64,000 nucleotides of DNA from Fibrobacter succinogenes (lineage in GTDB: Bacteria > Fibrobacterota > Fibrobacteria > Fibrobacterales > Fibrobacteraceae), in assembly GCA_902776765.1 (NCBI GenBank), contig CACYRP010000006.1:1-64000 (forward strand), given 5' to 3'. Shown in pieces: positions 30,745 through 37,628 of this stretch (the stretch's first letter is position 1; each line of letters starts with the position of its first letter). The notes below the pieces were generated by a model. That model did not search any database, had not been told where the DNA came from, and saw nothing but the letters and a program-made list of their open reading frames with translations. The translations under genes and the position numbers were made by a program.

Positions 30745-30776
30745 TAGATAAGTGTTTAAAAAACAAGTTTGTTATG

Positions 30777-30810
30777 CCCGCTTTTTTTTGTAAGCGGGTC
30801 TTTTTTTTCT
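30777..30810 (+). terminator. Rho-independent terminator
   Basis: CCCGCTT, 8-nt T/G loop, AAGCGGG, then T8 after C. It ends the transcript of the two small secreted-protein genes and directly precedes the first operator palindrome. Confidence 0.8.
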
Positions 30811-30811
30811 T

Positions 30812-30834
30812 ATACCGTACAGGGCGTACTGTAT
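30812..30834. promoter_or_regulatory. Operator palindrome of TIGR02147 cassette 1
   Basis: ATACCGTAC-AGGGC-GTACTGTAT, nine-base arms with one mismatch. Its second arm recurs as GTACTGTAG at 30898-30906, four bases upstream of the -35 box, 72 bp away (about seven helical turns). Confidence 0.55.
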
Positions 30835-30897
30835 ATTGTTAAAATACGTTTTTTTAATAAATAAAAATGCCTAAATTTTAATAAAAAGCTAAAAAAT

Positions 30898-30939
30898 GTA
30901 CTGTAGATTATTGACTTTTGATTTTTTGTAGAGTATATT
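30898..30939 (+). promoter_or_regulatory. Half-site and promoter of TIGR02147 cassette 1
   Basis: Half-site GTACTGTAG (30898-30906), four bases, -35 TTGACT (30911-30916), 17-bp spacer, -10 TATATT (30934-30939). The GTG start is seven bases after the -10, implying a leaderless mRNA. Confidence 0.65.
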
Positions 30940-30946
30940 TGTTTAT

Positions 30947-31789
30947 GTGAAACCGATAGTTGAATATCAAGATTACCACGTTTTTCTGAACGACTATTAC
31001 GAGGAACGCAAACGTACTTCGGCGTTCTCGTGGCGTGAGTTTGCGAAGATTGCTGGATTTATTTCTCCATCGTACCTTAAGGATGTCTGCGCCGGCAAAA
31101 CAAACCTTAGTAAAGTGACTATGGGGCGTGTGGCTGCTGCGATTGGGCTTGTCGGTCATCAGGTGGAATACTTCGAGGCGATGGTTCAGTTTGGCAATGC
31201 CAAGACGGATGATGCGAAGAAGAAGTTTTTAGAACAAATGCAGTCTATTGCGGTGGACCATAAAGTTCGCATTGTCGATAAGGACGCGTTTGAATATTAC
31301 GATAGCTGGAAAAATCCAGTAGTCCGCGAATTAGCCCCGCTAATGCCCGGTGCGATGCCTGGTGAAATCGCGAAGATGTGCACGCAAGAAATCTCTGCGC
31401 TCGAAGTTCGCAAGTCGCTTGCTTTTTTGGAACACGCGGGTTTCCTCAAGCAGATTGGTGAAAATGTTTATGTGCAGACGGAAAAGTCTGTGGAAGGTTC
31501 CAAGGAAGGGCTCCCGCTTGCAATCCGTTCGATGCACCGTGAAATGGGCAACCTTGCGGTAGATTCGTTGGATCGTTTTACCGCAGACGTGCGTAACGTT
31601 ATGGGCGTTACGATGGGCATCAACCATGAAACGTATGAACGCGTTGTTCATGAATTGGAAGAGTGCCGCAAAAAAATTACCGCCATTGCTGAAGAGTGCT
31701 GTGATATCAGGCAGGTTTACAGATTGAATTTGCAGTTGTTCCCTCTTTCTAAAGAGGTTACAAAACATGAGGAGATTGAAAATGAATAA
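30947..31789 (+). CDS. TIGR02147-type (DUF4423) transcriptional regulator, copy 1
   Basis: The 280-residue protein starts MKPIVEYQDYHVFLNDYYEE, matching the TIGR02147 paralogous family known mainly from Fibrobacter and Bdellovibrio. Residues about 24-60 (FSWREFAKIAGFISPSYLKD and following VCAGKTNLS) form an XRE/HTH-like DNA-binding unit. The middle (EYYDSWKNPVVRELAPLMPG, QEISALEVRKSLAFLEHAGF) resembles a winged helix. GTG start, probably leaderless. Its last 8 bp overlap the first lipoprotein gene, so regulator and lipoprotein are coupled. I infer autoregulation and control of the two following genes. Confidence 0.85.
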   Translation: MKPIVEYQDYHVFLNDYYEERKRTSAFSWREFAKIAGFISPSYLKDVCAGKTNLSKVTMGRVAAAIGLVGHQVEYFEAMVQFGNAKTDDAKKKFLEQMQSIAVDHKVRIVDKDAFEYYDSWKNPVVRELAPLMPGAMPGEIAKMCTQEISALEVRKSLAFLEHAGFLKQIGENVYVQTEKSVEGSKEGLPLAIRSMHREMGNLAVDSLDRFTADVRNVMGVTMGINHETYERVVHELEECRKKITAIAEECCDIRQVYRLNLQLFPLSKEVTKHEEIENE

Positions 31790-32633
31790 GACACTTTATA
31801 CGATGTGTGGTGCGATAGTTTTGGCTTTGGCTGCATGTGCCGATGGAACGTCGGTGGAGCCGAATACGTCGTATGCAGAGGGCAACTCGCTGTGGAATCC
31901 GCTTGCTGGCGATTTTTCTGTGAATACGGCTCGTTATGCAGAGAAGTTGCCTGAAAATTTGCAGGCTGATGGTCATTGGTTCTGGGAGACCAAAGGTGAT
32001 GATGATGATGGCGGACGGTCTTATGTGGAATGGCCTGTAAAATTGGGGAGTGGTGTGGACTCGTTGTCTACGGTTATTGAATCGTGCCAAGGCATTTGCG
32101 GTATTGCAAGGTTGAATCGGGGTGAGTTGAATTACGATCCGTTTGTTGGTGTTGGCTTTACGATTGCAAGAGATGAAACGGGTCGCCCAACACCAGTTGA
32201 TGTCTCTGATTGGGGTGGCATTTGCATTACTTATAAGTCTGAAATAGCTCCCTTTTTGGTTCTCGTTTTGGATGATTCCGAAAGTAAAGTACTTGAAGAT
32301 GGCTACGCTTTTCCTTTTGTGTCTTTGCCGAAAGCGCGGTCGGGTGAAATTACTAGATGCTATAGTTGGGATAAATTTCAATTGCCTTCATGGTTTAGAG
32401 GAGTCCCTGCATATTGGTCTGATAACGTTGGCGAAAAGGCTGCTCAGCGTTTAGTTGGAATTATGTTCAAAATGCAAAATGCACCTGGGGAGTATGCTTT
32501 CAGTATCAGCTATGTTGGAATGAATACGGAAGATGATTCGGGTATAGAAGTTCGGGAAGAGGGTTTTCAACGAGATGGTTGGTCACCCTTATTAAAGAGG
32601 GGTACGGTAAATGATGATGCTGAAGATAAATAA
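31782..32633 (+). CDS. Cassette 1 lipoprotein A
   Basis: The 283-residue protein uses the ATG after GAGGAG. Signal peptide with lipobox LAAC (MNKTLYTMCGAIVLALAAC). The single ~220-residue domain has landmarks shared by all cassette lipoproteins: WFWETKGDDDDGGRSYVEWP, CQGICGIARL, YDPFVGVGF, VDVSDWGGICITY and a C-terminal FKMQNAPGEYAFSISYVG. The paired Cys and jelly-roll-like strand pattern suggest a carbohydrate-binding-type sandwich at the cell surface (inference). The family is not named by me. Overlaps lipoprotein B by 23 bp. Confidence 0.75.
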   Translation: MNKTLYTMCGAIVLALAACADGTSVEPNTSYAEGNSLWNPLAGDFSVNTARYAEKLPENLQADGHWFWETKGDDDDGGRSYVEWPVKLGSGVDSLSTVIESCQGICGIARLNRGELNYDPFVGVGFTIARDETGRPTPVDVSDWGGICITYKSEIAPFLVLVLDDSESKVLEDGYAFPFVSLPKARSGEITRCYSWDKFQLPSWFRGVPAYWSDNVGEKAAQRLVGIMFKMQNAPGEYAFSISYVGMNTEDDSGIEVREEGFQRDGWSPLLKRGTVNDDAEDK

Positions 32634-33492
32634 GAAAATTTATACAGCGTGTGGCGTTATAGCCTTAGTTCTTGCGGCTTGCTCGGATGGAACTTCGATA
32701 GAACCGAATACATTTGCGCATGCCTCGTCTAGTTCTATATCTGACGATTTGTCTAGCGCGTCTGTGAATGGTAGTGTTCTGTGGAATCCTGAATTGGGTG
32801 ATTTCCGTGTTCATACGGCGCGTTATGCAATGTCCTGGCCGAAGAACGCTATTGCCGATGGCCGCTGGTTCTGGGAGGTGTTAACGGATGCTGCCGATGG
32901 CGGCGAGTCCAGGGTGCTGTGGCCGGTCGAGTTGGACGAAGGCGAGGACCCGTTACGGTCTGTTATGGATGCGTGCCATGGCATTTGTGGGACGGCAATC
33001 TTGGATAATGGTAGCATGGGTTATAGTCCTTTTGTGACGATAGGTTTCTCGATAGCGAAGGATTCTATGGGTAATCCGGTGCCTGTTGATGTCTCGAATT
33101 GGGAAGGCTTATGTGTTACTTATACTTCTGATGCGGCTCCTATGTTGGTGCTGGATTTGGGGGATTCGCTTGCAGAGGTGCTTCGCTATGGTTTGCCGCA
33201 GGTCTCCTTGCCTAAAGCGACAGATGGCGTGGCATTCTCGCAATGCTTTAGCTGGAGCGATTTCAAGTTGCCTCCTTGGGTGACGGATATTCCTCAATCT
33301 TGGAGGAGCAACGTTGGCGAACAGGCCGCAAAACAGCTTGTTGCGGTAAGGTTTAGGATTCAGGCGTATATGGGGGAATATAAGTTCAACCTCAAATATA
33401 TTGGGGCTAAGGCGGATAATCCCGTTGTTTTTGAACGCGAGGATGATTTTCAAAGGAGGATTAGCCCTAAAGGCTCTTGGAATAACCCGTAA
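32611..33492 (+). CDS. Cassette 1 lipoprotein B
   Basis: The 293-residue protein has lipobox LAAC, then a short Ser-rich linker (ASSSSISDDLSSAS) and the same domain as lipoprotein A: WFWEVLTDAADGGESRVLWP, CHGICGTAIL, YSPFVTIGF, VDVSNWEGLCVTY, LVLDLGDS and RFRIQAYMGEYKFNLKYIG. Close tandem paralogue of A. Start codons 32611, 32614 and 32617 are all possible. A terminator follows. Confidence 0.75.
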   Translation: MMMLKINKKIYTACGVIALVLAACSDGTSIEPNTFAHASSSSISDDLSSASVNGSVLWNPELGDFRVHTARYAMSWPKNAIADGRWFWEVLTDAADGGESRVLWPVELDEGEDPLRSVMDACHGICGTAILDNGSMGYSPFVTIGFSIAKDSMGNPVPVDVSNWEGLCVTYTSDAAPMLVLDLGDSLAEVLRYGLPQVSLPKATDGVAFSQCFSWSDFKLPPWVTDIPQSWRSNVGEQAAKQLVAVRFRIQAYMGEYKFNLKYIGAKADNPVVFEREDDFQRRISPKGSWNNP

Positions 33493-33513
33493 AAAATTTG
33501 TTAGGAGGAAGAG

Positions 33514-33543
33514 AGGACCCGGCGGAAGCTGGGTCCTTTTTTG
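33514..33543 (+). terminator. Terminator of TIGR02147 cassette 1
   Basis: AGGACCCGGC, GGAA, GCTGGGTCCT followed by TTTTTG. The cassette 2 operator palindrome begins within two bases of it. Confidence 0.8.
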
Positions 33544-33544
33544 T

Positions 33545-33566
33545 AAATGATACATTTGTATCATTT
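33545..33566. promoter_or_regulatory. Operator palindrome of TIGR02147 cassette 2
   Basis: AAATGATAC-ATTT-GTATCATTT, perfect nine-base arms. The second arm recurs exactly at 33631-33639, four bases upstream of the -35, 73 bp away. Confidence 0.6.
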
Positions 33567-33630
33567 ATTAATGTGATTGCGTTTTATTGTTGAAAATTTA
33601 TGCTATAATTTGTTGTTTTTAACTATTTTT

Positions 33631-33672
33631 GTATCATTTGATATTGACGAAGGGCTCGTGAAAGTGTATATT
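33631..33672 (+). promoter_or_regulatory. Half-site and promoter of TIGR02147 cassette 2
   Basis: Half-site GTATCATTT (33631-33639), four bases, -35 TTGACG (33644-33649), 17-bp spacer, -10 TATATT (33667-33672). ATG follows after eight bases, so the mRNA is likely leaderless. Confidence 0.65.
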
Positions 33673-33680
33673 ATGTCATT

Positions 33681-34514
33681 ATGAAACCGATTGTGGAATA
33701 TAAAGATTACCGAGCCTACATGGCGGACTTTTACGAGGAGCGTAAGAGGACTTCTGCATTCACATGGCGCGAGTTTGCGAAGATTGCTGGGTTCACATCT
33801 CCCTCGTATTTGAAACTAGTCTGTGATGGCAAGAGCAGCTTGAGCCGTGTGACGATGAATCGTGTGGCCGTGGCGATGGGGCTTGTCGGTTATGAAATTG
33901 AGTATTTCGAAGCGATGGTGAATTTTGTCAATGCGCAAAAGGACGATGTCAAGAAAACTTATTTTGATAAGATGATGGCGATTTCGGTGGCGAATCAGGT
34001 CCGCGTAATCGACAAGGCTGCGTTTGAATATTACGACAGTTGGAAAAATCAGGTGGTGCGAGAACTTGCGCCGATGATGCCGGGTGCGATGCCTGGCGAA
34101 ATGGCGAAGGCGTGCTGTCAGGAAATTTCCGCTCTCGAAGTCCGAAAGTCGCTTGCATTTTTGGAAAAAGCGGGGTTCTTGAAACAGGTCGGCGAGAATG
34201 TTTATGAGCAAACGGATAAAGCTGTTATAGGCTCCAAGGAAGGCTTGACACTGGCGATTCGCATGATGCATCGCGAAATGGGACGCCTTGGTATAGATTC
34301 TATTGACCAGTTTGGCCCTGAAAATCGTAATGTTACTGGTGTTACTTTGGGTGTGAATCGAGAAGGTTATGAAGAAATTGCGAGAGAGCTGGATGCTTTC
34401 CGCAAAAAAGTTATTTCGATTGCGGCAAAATGCGGCAAGCTCGATCAGGTTTACAGATTGAATTTACAGTTTTTCCCTTTGACGAAAAAAGTCGAGAATG
34501 GAGAGGGGGCTTGA
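33681..34514 (+). CDS. TIGR02147-type (DUF4423) transcriptional regulator, copy 2
   Basis: The 277-residue close paralogue of copy 1 reads MKPIVEYKDYRAYMADFYEE, EFAKIAGFTSPSYLKLVCDG, QEISALEVRKSLAFLEKAGF. Changes concentrate in the putative recognition region (copy 1 FISPSYLKDVCAGKTN, copy 2 FTSPSYLKLVCDGKSS), which fits the different operator sequence. Starts with ATG, no Shine-Dalgarno. The following lipoprotein ATG is two bases after its TGA. Confidence 0.85.
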   Translation: MKPIVEYKDYRAYMADFYEERKRTSAFTWREFAKIAGFTSPSYLKLVCDGKSSLSRVTMNRVAVAMGLVGYEIEYFEAMVNFVNAQKDDVKKTYFDKMMAISVANQVRVIDKAAFEYYDSWKNQVVRELAPMMPGAMPGEMAKACCQEISALEVRKSLAFLEKAGFLKQVGENVYEQTDKAVIGSKEGLTLAIRMMHREMGRLGIDSIDQFGPENRNVTGVTLGVNREGYEEIARELDAFRKKVISIAAKCGKLDQVYRLNLQFFPLTKKVENGEGA

Positions 34515-34516
34515 TT

Positions 34517-35458
34517 ATGAACAAGAATCTTTATATGGCTTGCGTAGGGGCGTTTCTGCTCGCTACGTTGGGGTGCTCAGATAGCAATATTTCCGGGTCG
34601 TCGGAAGATCCGAATGTCTTGATGGCGTATGGTTCGTCCAGTTCGAATGTCGTAAATTCGAGTTCCTCAGATGAACCAACGAATTTGTCGTCAAGTTCCT
34701 TAGCTGAGCCGGCAGATTTGTCATCGAGTTCGGATATTGTGTATTCGAGTTCCTCACGACGTAATCCTGTTCTTTGTAAGGCTGCGGCGTCCGCTGGTGA
34801 GCATGTCGGTGGTTGTGCAATCATGTATGATGATTTGTGGCATTCGGAATCGCCTAAAGTGAATGTGACCGCATATGCGGATGATTCCTCTCAATTTGGT
34901 TCTGATGCCGGAAAATGGTTTTGGGAAACGGATTCTGCCGATGGTGGAAAATCTGTTTTGGAATGGCCGGTTGAATTGGGCAATTATTATGATGCGAATG
35001 CGCTAGATTCTGTTTTTGGTTTCTGCTATGGCGTGTGTGGCACATTCCGTTTGGATATGGGCGATTTAAGTTATAATCCGTATGTTTCTGTCGGCTTTAA
35101 CGTGGCCGGATTTGATAATGAGGGAAAGCCTAAGTCTGTTGATGTTTCGAATTGGGGTGGTATTTGTTTAGAATACAAGTCTGATATTGCTGTGGCAATA
35201 GTGCTAGATCTCGGTGATTCGCTTAACCAGAAGTTGGGTATGGCGCTTCCGGTCGTGGTCTTGTCGAGGTCGAGTGGTAGTGCACGATGCTTTAAATGGG
35301 ACGACTTCAAGATGCCTAGTTGGGCAAAAGATGTGGAATATAAGATCTCTGGAGAAGACGCGGCAAAGCATGTCTCAAGAATCTTCTTTAACTTTCAGGG
35401 GAAATCGGAAACGGTTGGTGAATTTAACATTCGGTCAATTGGTTCAAACCGCTGGTAA
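34517..35458 (+). CDS. Cassette 2 lipoprotein C
   Basis: The 313-residue protein has lipobox LGCS (MNKNLYMACVGAFLLATLGC). A Ser-rich linker (residues about 40-85, several SSSS blocks) leads into one copy of the cassette domain: WFWETDSADGGKSVLEWPVE, CYGVCGTFRL, YNPYVSVGF, VDVSNWGGICLEY, IVLDLGDS. The first ~100 bases are nearly identical to those of lipoprotein D although the rest has diverged. Presumed outer-membrane surface protein. Confidence 0.75.
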   Translation: MNKNLYMACVGAFLLATLGCSDSNISGSSEDPNVLMAYGSSSSNVVNSSSSDEPTNLSSSSLAEPADLSSSSDIVYSSSSRRNPVLCKAAASAGEHVGGCAIMYDDLWHSESPKVNVTAYADDSSQFGSDAGKWFWETDSADGGKSVLEWPVELGNYYDANALDSVFGFCYGVCGTFRLDMGDLSYNPYVSVGFNVAGFDNEGKPKSVDVSNWGGICLEYKSDIAVAIVLDLGDSLNQKLGMALPVVVLSRSSGSARCFKWDDFKMPSWAKDVEYKISGEDAAKHVSRIFFNFQGKSETVGEFNIRSIGSNRW

Positions 35459-35504
35459 AGCGAATGCGTAAGGGATTTTTTTCCTTCTTGGAGGAAATGT
35501 GATT

Positions 35505-37580
35505 ATGAACAAGAATCTTTATATGGCTTGCGTGGGGGCGTTTCTGCTCGCGGCGTTGGGGTGCTCGGATGGCGATATTTCCGGGTCGTCGGAAGATCCA
35601 AATGTCTTGACCGCTTTGGGATCGTCGAGCTCTGTTCTTGATAATTCTAGTAGCTCATTTTGGGGCTATCCGGATGGGCAACCGCGCTTGTGCCGTGTTT
35701 CCGAAATGGAAAATGCACCTGCTGGTTGCGACTGGTTTGCTGAAATGTGGAATCCGGAATCTGGAAACCGCGTCCATACCGGTTTTGATAACGGAACGAA
35801 TACATCGGGAATATGGTATTGGAAATTGGATACTAACGAGCTCTTGATCCCGAGTGTTCAGTGGGTGGGTACTGCTCAACAGGGCTACGATTCTTTAGCA
35901 ATGAGCAATGTGATTGAACGTTGCGGTGGTTCTATTTGTGGCGCGTCTCACTTTAATGCGATTGACGATGGCGAAAATCGTTTTAACTATGAATTTGTGG
36001 GTACGGAAAAACCAGCTTCTGTCGATATCGCTTTTAGCATGGCCGGTAAAAATGCGTCTGGGCGATTTGATGAAGTTGACGTAAGCGGGCTAGGCGGTTT
36101 TTGCGTGGGCTATGAATCGAGCGGCTTGATTACGATGTACCTTGATTTTAACGACTCTGTCAACGCTTTGTTGGATACCATGACTTACAAAGTAATACTG
36201 GATAGAACTACGATCAATGGAAAATCGAAGGCCTCGGACTATCGCGAAGAATGCTTTGCGTGGGCAGACTTTTCGAGATATGGCTCTGTATTGGTGCATG
36301 AAGCTGCAGTTAGTATTGAAGACGCGATAAAGCATTTGGTTGGGGTCCACTTTAAGATGGATGGTTATTATAACAAGTCCGCTATTACTTTTAAAATCGT
36401 TCGTTTCGGGCGCTTTGCCAATGCGAATGGTCGAAAAGCGTTGGATGGCGAAAATCTCCCGACGGTTGATGGATCTTGCGTTTCGCCGGCTGTTGTTGAA
36501 AATTTCTGCGAGTGCAATTATGTGGATTCCGGTGCGGTCATTGATGGGCTTCGCTTAGGGCATTCGTATGCGGTTGAGGAAGCCAAGGCCAACTGGGGCG
36601 AGGACTTGTCTGCACGAAATAATTGCGTTAATATGATGTGGATGCGCTCTACATTGGAAATGCCTCTCATGACGGCGAAGAATCTGCCTTGCGACAATGC
36701 TCAACCTAAGATAATGCAATGCGCCGATGGTTCGTACCGCTTTTCCCAGGAGTTTGCGTCTGTGAAATCAAGATACGATGCAATTGCTGAAGAAAATGCG
36801 CTTGCCAGGAAACGGGTTCTTTTGGACCGCGTCGATAGTTGCTTGAATTTGTCTTCGTCATCAGCGGGTGCCTCAAGCTCTTCGTATTTTTTCCCGTGTT
36901 GCACGGCTTTCGCGGGCGGTAATGACTTGTGGAATGGAGAGACTGCGTTTGTTGATGTTGAAGATTTTATTGAATCGCCGCGAAACGATGTGGAATATGG
37001 ATACTTTTTCTGGGGAACGGATAGCGCTGATGGTGGAACGTCTACTATTCGTTGGCCGGTAAAGTTGGGCAACGTTTTTTCTGCGGAGTCCATGGATCCG
37101 GTGATTGATTATTGCGGAGGCCTCTGTGGAACTGCTGTCTTGAATCATGATTCGTTGCCCTATAACCCGTTTGTAACGGTCGGATTTTGGTTGGGTAAGG
37201 AATATATGGGCGAGCCGATATCCGTCGATGTATCCAGCTGGGGCGGACTCTGTATCAGCTATTCGTCGGAAGTCTCTCCTGCGTTGGAACTGGATTTGGG
37301 AGATTCTTTAAATGCATTGCTTGGGTGGGCGTTACCGTTTGCCAGTCTTCCAAAATCAGTGGGTGTCGTGGAAAAATGCATTAAATGGAGTAATTTTAAG
37401 CTACCCTCGTGGGTGAAAAGTTTGACTGCTGTGGACCAGGATTGGCTTGAAGTTTCGGGATGGTTGGATAGTGCGGGTGTAATGGCGTCTAAGCAGCTGG
37501 TGAAAGTGAATATCAAGATGCAGGCATCGCCTGGTGAATACGACTTTAGCATTAGGGCTATCGGTACGAACCGTCAATAA
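35505..37580 (+). CDS. Cassette 2 lipoprotein D, two-domain
   Basis: The 691-residue protein has lipobox LGCS and GGAGGAAATG upstream. It carries two copies of the cassette domain. The first (about residues 60-310) is divergent (CGGSICGASHF, VDVSGLGGFCVGY). The second (about 460-690) is typical (FFWGTDSADGGTSTIRWPVK, CGGLCGTAVL, YNPFVTVGF, VDVSSWGGLCISY). Between them lies a Cys-rich segment (ENFCECNYVDSGAVIDGLRL) and a short Ser linker. Last gene of the cassette, followed by a terminator. Confidence 0.75.
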   Translation: MNKNLYMACVGAFLLAALGCSDGDISGSSEDPNVLTALGSSSSVLDNSSSSFWGYPDGQPRLCRVSEMENAPAGCDWFAEMWNPESGNRVHTGFDNGTNTSGIWYWKLDTNELLIPSVQWVGTAQQGYDSLAMSNVIERCGGSICGASHFNAIDDGENRFNYEFVGTEKPASVDIAFSMAGKNASGRFDEVDVSGLGGFCVGYESSGLITMYLDFNDSVNALLDTMTYKVILDRTTINGKSKASDYREECFAWADFSRYGSVLVHEAAVSIEDAIKHLVGVHFKMDGYYNKSAITFKIVRFGRFANANGRKALDGENLPTVDGSCVSPAVVENFCECNYVDSGAVIDGLRLGHSYAVEEAKANWGEDLSARNNCVNMMWMRSTLEMPLMTAKNLPCDNAQPKIMQCADGSYRFSQEFASVKSRYDAIAEENALARKRVLLDRVDSCLNLSSSSAGASSSSYFFPCCTAFAGGNDLWNGETAFVDVEDFIESPRNDVEYGYFFWGTDSADGGTSTIRWPVKLGNVFSAESMDPVIDYCGGLCGTAVLNHDSLPYNPFVTVGFWLGKEYMGEPISVDVSSWGGLCISYSSEVSPALELDLGDSLNALLGWALPFASLPKSVGVVEKCIKWSNFKLPSWVKSLTAVDQDWLEVSGWLDSAGVMASKQLVKVNIKMQASPGEYDFSIRAIGTNRQ

Positions 37581-37600
37581 ATATTGAAAAGGAATAGTAA

Positions 37601-37628
37601 AAAGGACCCGGCAGGTGCCGGGCCCTTT
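37601..37628 (+). terminator. Terminator of TIGR02147 cassette 2
   Basis: AAAGGACCCGGC, AGGT, GCCGGGCCCTTT, then TCTCC. Can also serve the convergent GH5 gene. Confidence 0.8.

Follow-up and report, generated by a model that had tools for sequence, protein, structure and literature searches.

The stretch of DNA considered here (the window, i.e., positions 1 to 64,000 of contig CACYRP010000006.1, 64,000 nucleotides in all) belongs to the genome of an uncultured rumen Fibrobacter assembled in 117 contigs (3.92 Mb), and it contains two adjacent cassettes in which a gene encoding a regulator of the TIGR02147 family precedes two lipoprotein genes. Upstream of both regulators the same elements occur in the same order, namely an operator palindrome, an A/T-rich spacer, a single half-site and a promoter, and among the paralogs of these regulators this geometry is held while the operator words are replaced. 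The arrangement is best explained by autoregulatory modules in which the regulator would bridge palindrome and half-site over pre-bent DNA, an explanation that is considered reasonably probable. The phased A-tracts of the spacer, the probably leaderless messenger RNA (mRNA) and the predicted fold of the lipoproteins, which resembles carbohydrate-binding module family 11 (CBM11), are additions to an earlier note on this DNA.

The elements of the two cassettes are given below in their order along the window (+, forward strand), with distances in base pairs (bp) or nucleotides (nt). Direct reading bore out, base for base, the operator layout that the earlier note had described for both cassettes, and promoters 1 and 2 were found independently at the same coordinates by a consensus scan.

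30776–30809, +: terminator-like hairpin and T-run of the upstream gene (hairpin scan), abutting palindrome 1
30812–30834: palindrome 1, arm A ATACCGTAC (30812–30820), five bases AGGGC, arm B GTACTGTAT (30826–30834)
30835–30897: spacer 1, A/T-rich, 63 bp
30898–30906, +: half-site C1 GTACTGTAG, 72 bp from arm B and 4 bp before the −35
30911–30939, +: promoter 1, TTGACT (30911–30916), 17 bp, TATATT (30934–30939)
30947–31789, +: regulator 1, TIGR02147/DUF4423, 280 amino acids, recognition region SPSYLKDVCAGKTNLS; start codon GTG at 30947, 7 nt from the −10
31767–32633, +: lipoprotein 1, predicted CBM11-like domain; likely start 31782
32611–33492, +: lipoprotein 2, predicted CBM11-like domain
33515–33542, +: terminator-like hairpin GGACCC...GGGTCC and T-run, abutting palindrome 2; read by eye, its 10-base loop being beyond the limits of the hairpin scan
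33545–33566: palindrome 2, AAATGATAC (33545–33553), ATTT, GTATCATTT (33558–33566)
33567–33630: spacer 2, A/T-rich, 64 bp
33631–33639, +: half-site C2 GTATCATTT, 73 bp from arm B and 4 bp before the −35
33644–33672, +: promoter 2, TTGACG (33644–33649), 17 bp, TATATT (33667–33672)
33681–34514, +: regulator 2, TIGR02147/DUF4423, 277 amino acids, recognition region SPSYLKLVCDGKSSLS; start codon ATG at 33681, 8 nt from the −10
34517–35458, +: lipoprotein 3, serine-rich linker and one predicted CBM11-like domain
35499–37580, +: lipoprotein 4, two copies of the predicted CBM11-like domain

The two regulators are 68% identical. Palindromes 1 and 2 each have one exact match in the genome, their own site, and both are conserved in orthologs; the composite of half-site and −35 of cassette 2 likewise occurs once. 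Because of this uniqueness the obvious target of each regulator, as judged from the sequence, is its own promoter.

The generality of the layout was examined with 188 distinct regulator genes for which upstream DNA was available, from this genome, four more Fibrobacter genomes and orthologs. A blind search for two inverted arms and a downstream repeat of one of them was run on the 108 upstream regions with a recognisable −35/−10, leaving the distance between arm and half-site free (40–109 bp) and taking a score of at least 25 as a strong match. Palindrome and half-site reached this score in 61 of the 108 regions, 59 of which have a spacing of 70–73 bp, and dinucleotide-preserving shuffles produced 3/216 such matches, none of them at 70–73 bp. 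The strong matches represent 12 regulator clusters (below 70% identity), 11 of them with the 70–73 bp spacing, and variants removed by a whole helical turn (62 or 83 bp) were not found among these matches. Since the words of the operators vary from cluster to cluster (GTACTATA, GTATCATTT, GTTGCATAA, GTATAATA, GTATAGTA, GTGTTGTGG, TGTTTCTTA, TGTGTTATA and others), the proposal that geometry is conserved while sequence is replaced holds beyond the two cassettes in which it was made. In most clusters the half-site is located 3–7 bp upstream of the −35 and not over it. An apparent compensation between the spacing and the distance from half-site to −35 (r = −0.69) was left unused, because it owes most of its strength to close relatives among the sequences.

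Orthologs in about 20 genomes keep the operators of both cassettes. Those of cassette 1 have TATAC(A/C)GTAC-N4/5-GTACTATA and the half-site (T)GTACTATAAACTATTGAC, those of cassette 2 have AAATGATAC-N4-GTATCATTT and the half-site TTTTGTATCATTTTATATTGAC, and most spacer positions vary in both sets; operator words, half-site and −35/−10 were kept while spacer and flanks diverged. Comparison of upstream regions across TIGR02147 genes, suggested with the earlier note as a check, recovered the layout in the 11 clusters mentioned above and not in the divergent subfamilies, in which an upstream scan of this genome found no palindrome. The members L239 and L242 fetched from a sister genus (G103) appear by eye to retain the layout; most TIGR02147 members in other families are without it, often still with a lipoprotein downstream. 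L001, of a divergent subfamily, has GTGTTCCC repeats 73 bp apart, and repeated GTGTTCCCAA words occur in another TIGR02147 subfamily (upstream of L001 and L222), two of the L001 copies being about 73 bp apart. A subtype composed of L007, L008, L012 and L030 lacks a −35 consensus and has the half-site at that position, and L007, L008 and L012 carry an additional half-site ahead of the palindrome. The position of the palindrome right after the previous terminator, also pointed out earlier, is real in both cassettes; as a defining feature of the modules it does not stand, since a terminator adjoins the palindrome in 32 of 69 genes, mostly of one cluster (about 6.5% expected per search window), and is therefore common rather than defining.

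The correspondence between regulators and operators was addressed through covariation. For 19 promoters of the genome, located by their −35/−10 only, the upstream arm had a mean score of 11.4 against its own half-site and of 5.5 against the half-sites of other promoters (0/100,000 permutations), and the own arm ranked first in 11 of the 19. A partial Mantel test on 36 regulators below 85% identity showed that similarity of the recognition region predicts similarity of the half-site when the rest of the protein is removed (partial r = 0.26, 0/5,000); in the reverse test, with the helix-turn-helix (HTH) taken into account, the remainder of the protein gave no such prediction in these regulators (r = 0.04, 1,267/5,000). 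Examples of this pairing are SPSYLKLVC(D/E)GKSSLS with GTATCATTT, SPSYLK(D/T/M)VCxGKTNLS with GTACTATAA, SSYMKVVCDGKSKLS with GTTGCATAA and SPNFLKLVCMGQSKLS with GTATAATA. On account of this covariation the operators are probably bound by the cognate regulator, and autoregulation is well supported by the sequences. The claim that each paralogous regulator reads its own operator is sustained by both kinds of covariation and has to be relaxed in one respect, as the half-site GTATCATTT is common to three promoters of the genome (L013, L021, and L022), and L013 and L021 have an identical recognition helix. Cross-talk within a recognition class is thus possible, and the operators, by their sequences, are not strictly private: regulators with the same recognition helix have the same word. 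At L169 (upstream of 1501) the palindrome is ATGATAC/GTATCAT and the half-site is GTACTATAA, and the recognition region, SPTYLKLVCEGKSNLS, is intermediate between the two classes of the window; L169 may possibly represent a natural intermediate of a specificity change.

The spacer between palindrome and half-site contains A-tracts every 10–11 bp. In aligned spacers AAA peaks near positions 7, 16, 27, 37, and 48 and is almost missing between these peaks. Each of the 15 cluster representatives had a positive phasing, expressed as a vector score and tested against dinucleotide shuffles; their mean z of 2.28 was higher than that of A/T-rich intergenic controls (mean z 0.64, n = 17; p = 4e-5). Phased A-tracts bend DNA, and a short bridge would therefore be well served by a spacer that spans about seven turns and is curved beforehand; in this way the looping between sites that had been suggested earlier, with a regulator complex joining palindrome and half-site, becomes plausible. 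A CGTTTT block is conserved about 10–20 bp after the palindrome in the ortholog sets of both cassettes, independently of the operator word.

The start codon is found 6–9 nt after the −10 in 58 of the 69 promoters with the layout; a Shine-Dalgarno-like motif occurs in 2 of these 58, and the other 11 have longer leaders, 8 of them with such a motif. For both reasons most module mRNAs, including those of the two cassettes, are probably leaderless. The leaders of the paralog cluster L009, L010, L015, and L018 (G000:C28) are long and end in AGGAGG.

According to the proposed mechanism, one promoter would express the TIGR02147 regulator (XRE-type HTH and DUF4423) with the lipoprotein or lipoproteins behind it. 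The regulator would bind its own palindrome, the dyad of which is about 120 bp upstream of the start, and the half-site directly behind the −35; the approximately 63 bp from arm B to the half-site would be pre-bent by the phased A-tracts and bridged by the regulator complex as a tight loop, and the effect on transcription would probably be exerted by a regulator subunit next to sigma at the −35. As operator words and recognition helix seem to have diversified together, the modules would fall into several recognition classes. With regard to the sign of control, there is a slight lean to activation, in the manner of lambda CI, over repression, because the half-site stands behind the −35 and clear of it, and in one subtype replaces a missing −35.

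Several observations weigh against this mechanism. The promoters are near-consensus and have no obvious need for an activator. At residue level the association between helix and operator within the two classes of the window is confounded with phylogeny, for which reason it was dropped and the wider Mantel test used alone; some operators of one genome have the same word, and palindrome and half-site of L169 come from different word classes. Some phasing is also present in promoter-like controls of 75% A/T or more (mean z 1.14, n = 13), and the excess of the module spacers over these best-matched controls, which include a few module promoters, is modest (p = 0.017). The near-consensus core promoters (TTGACT/TATATT, 17-bp spacing) speak for negative autoregulation, in which the loop would exclude RNA polymerase for as long as DUF4423 has no ligand; this ligand might be, for instance, a product of glucan breakdown or a signal from the envelope. 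A tight loop would be favoured by the phased A-tracts, and the narrow range of spacing, without whole-turn variants, is also in line with this reading. This alternative has a fair claim to attention and is nonetheless regarded as the less probable one, given that in most clusters the half-site stops short of the −35 and that its substitution for the −35 in L007, L008, L012, and L030 fits activation better. It is rather unlikely that no loop is formed at all, the sites being bound separately and the A-tracts providing a curvature like that of UP elements, which would serve the promoter regardless of the regulator. The mild phasing of A/T-rich control promoters speaks for such a role, whereas the spacers of the modules exceed both these controls and A/T-rich intergenic DNA, and the distance of 70–73 bp is held across 11 clusters.

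Two further explanations deny the cognate regulator or the layout itself a part. The modules are all paralogs, many of them in tandem, and the layout might merely have been inherited from a common ancestor without any function; this is extremely improbable and was rejected, as it is contradicted by the covariation tests: the words changed together at three places per promoter at constant spacing, they track the recognition helix, and operator words, half-site and −35/−10 persist in orthologs in spite of the divergence of spacer and flanks. Reading of the operators by another, shared regulator instead of the adjacent TIGR02147 protein was likewise rejected as very improbable, for within a single genome the modules have different words, and these words go with the recognition helix of the regulator next to them. 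Returning to autoregulation through a bridge, a more elaborate form of it, for the present speculative and rather improbable, would make of the modules two dozen or more largely insulated switches, each combining a leaderless transcript and a diversified pair of helix and word with positive feedback that runs through a loop of bent DNA. Each would by itself switch a single surface lipoprotein, of the glycan-binding or FISUMP kind, on or off, which would generate heritable surface diversity without DNA rearrangement.

Both regulators belong to TIGR02147 (Fsuc_second; E 3e-91 and 1e-92), with full-length scores of 305.7 and 310.5 bits against a curated cut-off of 50 bits, and also match DUF4423 (PF14394). 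The genome has 38 TIGR02147 matches, many of them paralogs in tandem; the family is present in all 61 genomes of the genus Fibrobacter that were searched, and at least one match occurs in 141 of 151 genomes sampled across the phylum. The predicted structure of the regulator (mean pLDDT 90) has an N-terminal XRE-type HTH, for which Foldseek matches include C.AhdI (probability 1.00), DdrO (0.99) and SinR (0.98) over about 63–81 residues, as well as C.BclI (within 0.98–1.00); the sequence match to HTH_3 is slightly below the Pfam cut-off. Downstream of every readable regulator of the genome there is an open reading frame with a lipoprotein signal, usually within about 45 bp (two regulators are truncated by contig ends, which leaves their downstream DNA unreadable, and the count comprises several proteins with a plain lipobox in the printed sequence that were overlooked by the automatic flag). 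Since every readable regulator precedes a lipoprotein gene, regulator plus lipoprotein is a general unit, and together with the uniqueness of each full palindrome this agrees with the view of the cassettes as self-contained modules. The TIGR02147 and DUF4423 database entries examined, which describe the family of both regulators, give no function and mention neither the operator layout nor the lipoprotein partner. No paper in the literature searched names TIGR02147, DUF4423 is found there only in a Bdellovibrio proteome table, and searches on TIGR02147, on FISUMP and on operators of Fibrobacter brought up no relevant work.

Elements of the layout are known from other systems. Lambda CI at PRM/OR, C.AhdI, C.BclI and SinR also combine an XRE-type HTH with control of the own promoter and a site abutting the −35, and the transcript from lambda PRM is leaderless. 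The modules differ from lambda CI and the XRE autoregulators in that the palindrome is about 72 bp away and a single half-site stands next to the promoter, and in the C-terminal DUF4423 and the dozens of diversified copies per genome. AraC (araO2/araI1), LacI (O1/O3) and GalR similarly use a pair of their own sites, set around a promoter at a fixed helical distance from each other; in contrast to these, the fold is unrelated, the sites are a palindrome and a half-site about 72 bp apart, the spacer has phased A-tracts and there are many paralogs. The effects of poly(dA:dT) on short-loop formation were studied in the Lac system (PMC3795714). A recognition code for operators of the LacI family was inferred from local autoregulation (PMC2978694), and there, as here, the operators of autoregulated paralogs follow the recognition residues; the present fold is another one, and only recognition classes have been worked out.

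With these results a family found throughout the phylum, whose annotation goes no further than "TIGR02147 family protein", receives its first testable function, and its dozens of copies in rumen fibre degraders are explained: each heads a surface-lipoprotein operon. The modules also form a naturally occurring set of paralogous pairs of regulator and operator, all of fixed geometry, suited to working out a recognition code, to tests of helical-phase-dependent short loops over bent DNA and to the building of orthogonal regulators.

In each cassette the regulator is followed by two lipoprotein genes, and the Cys-paired domain that the lipoproteins had been said to share is carried by all four, with four nearly invariant Cys. 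In searches of 52 members no Pfam family was found in more than one, all matches being weak, and the domain had no sequence match in the PDB. Its fold is predicted with confidence (pLDDT 91), and the top structural matches in the PDB are CBM11 modules (E 1.4e-5 to 5.9e-5), the best being that of Clostridium thermocellum Lic26A-Cel5E (1v0a; E 1.4e-5, probability 1.00); CBM29, CBM30 and a laminarin-binding module are also among the best matches. The domain thus has, according to the model, a CBM11-like fold of the beta-glucan-binding type, and differs from 1v0a in sequence (15% identity, TM-score 0.41/0.54), in its four nearly invariant Cys and in the lack of a Pfam match. A glucan-binding role of these lipoproteins at the surface is plausible, as CBM11 and CBM30 are found in cellulases that F. 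succinogenes S85 upregulates (PMC6851124). If they do bind beta-glucans, the modules bear on the way in which Fibrobacter tunes its attachment to plant fibre. Lipoproteins of several other modules, encoded downstream of L008, L011, L015, and L026, carry the FISUMP domain TIGR02145, and these proteins link two large paralogous families of Fibrobacter.

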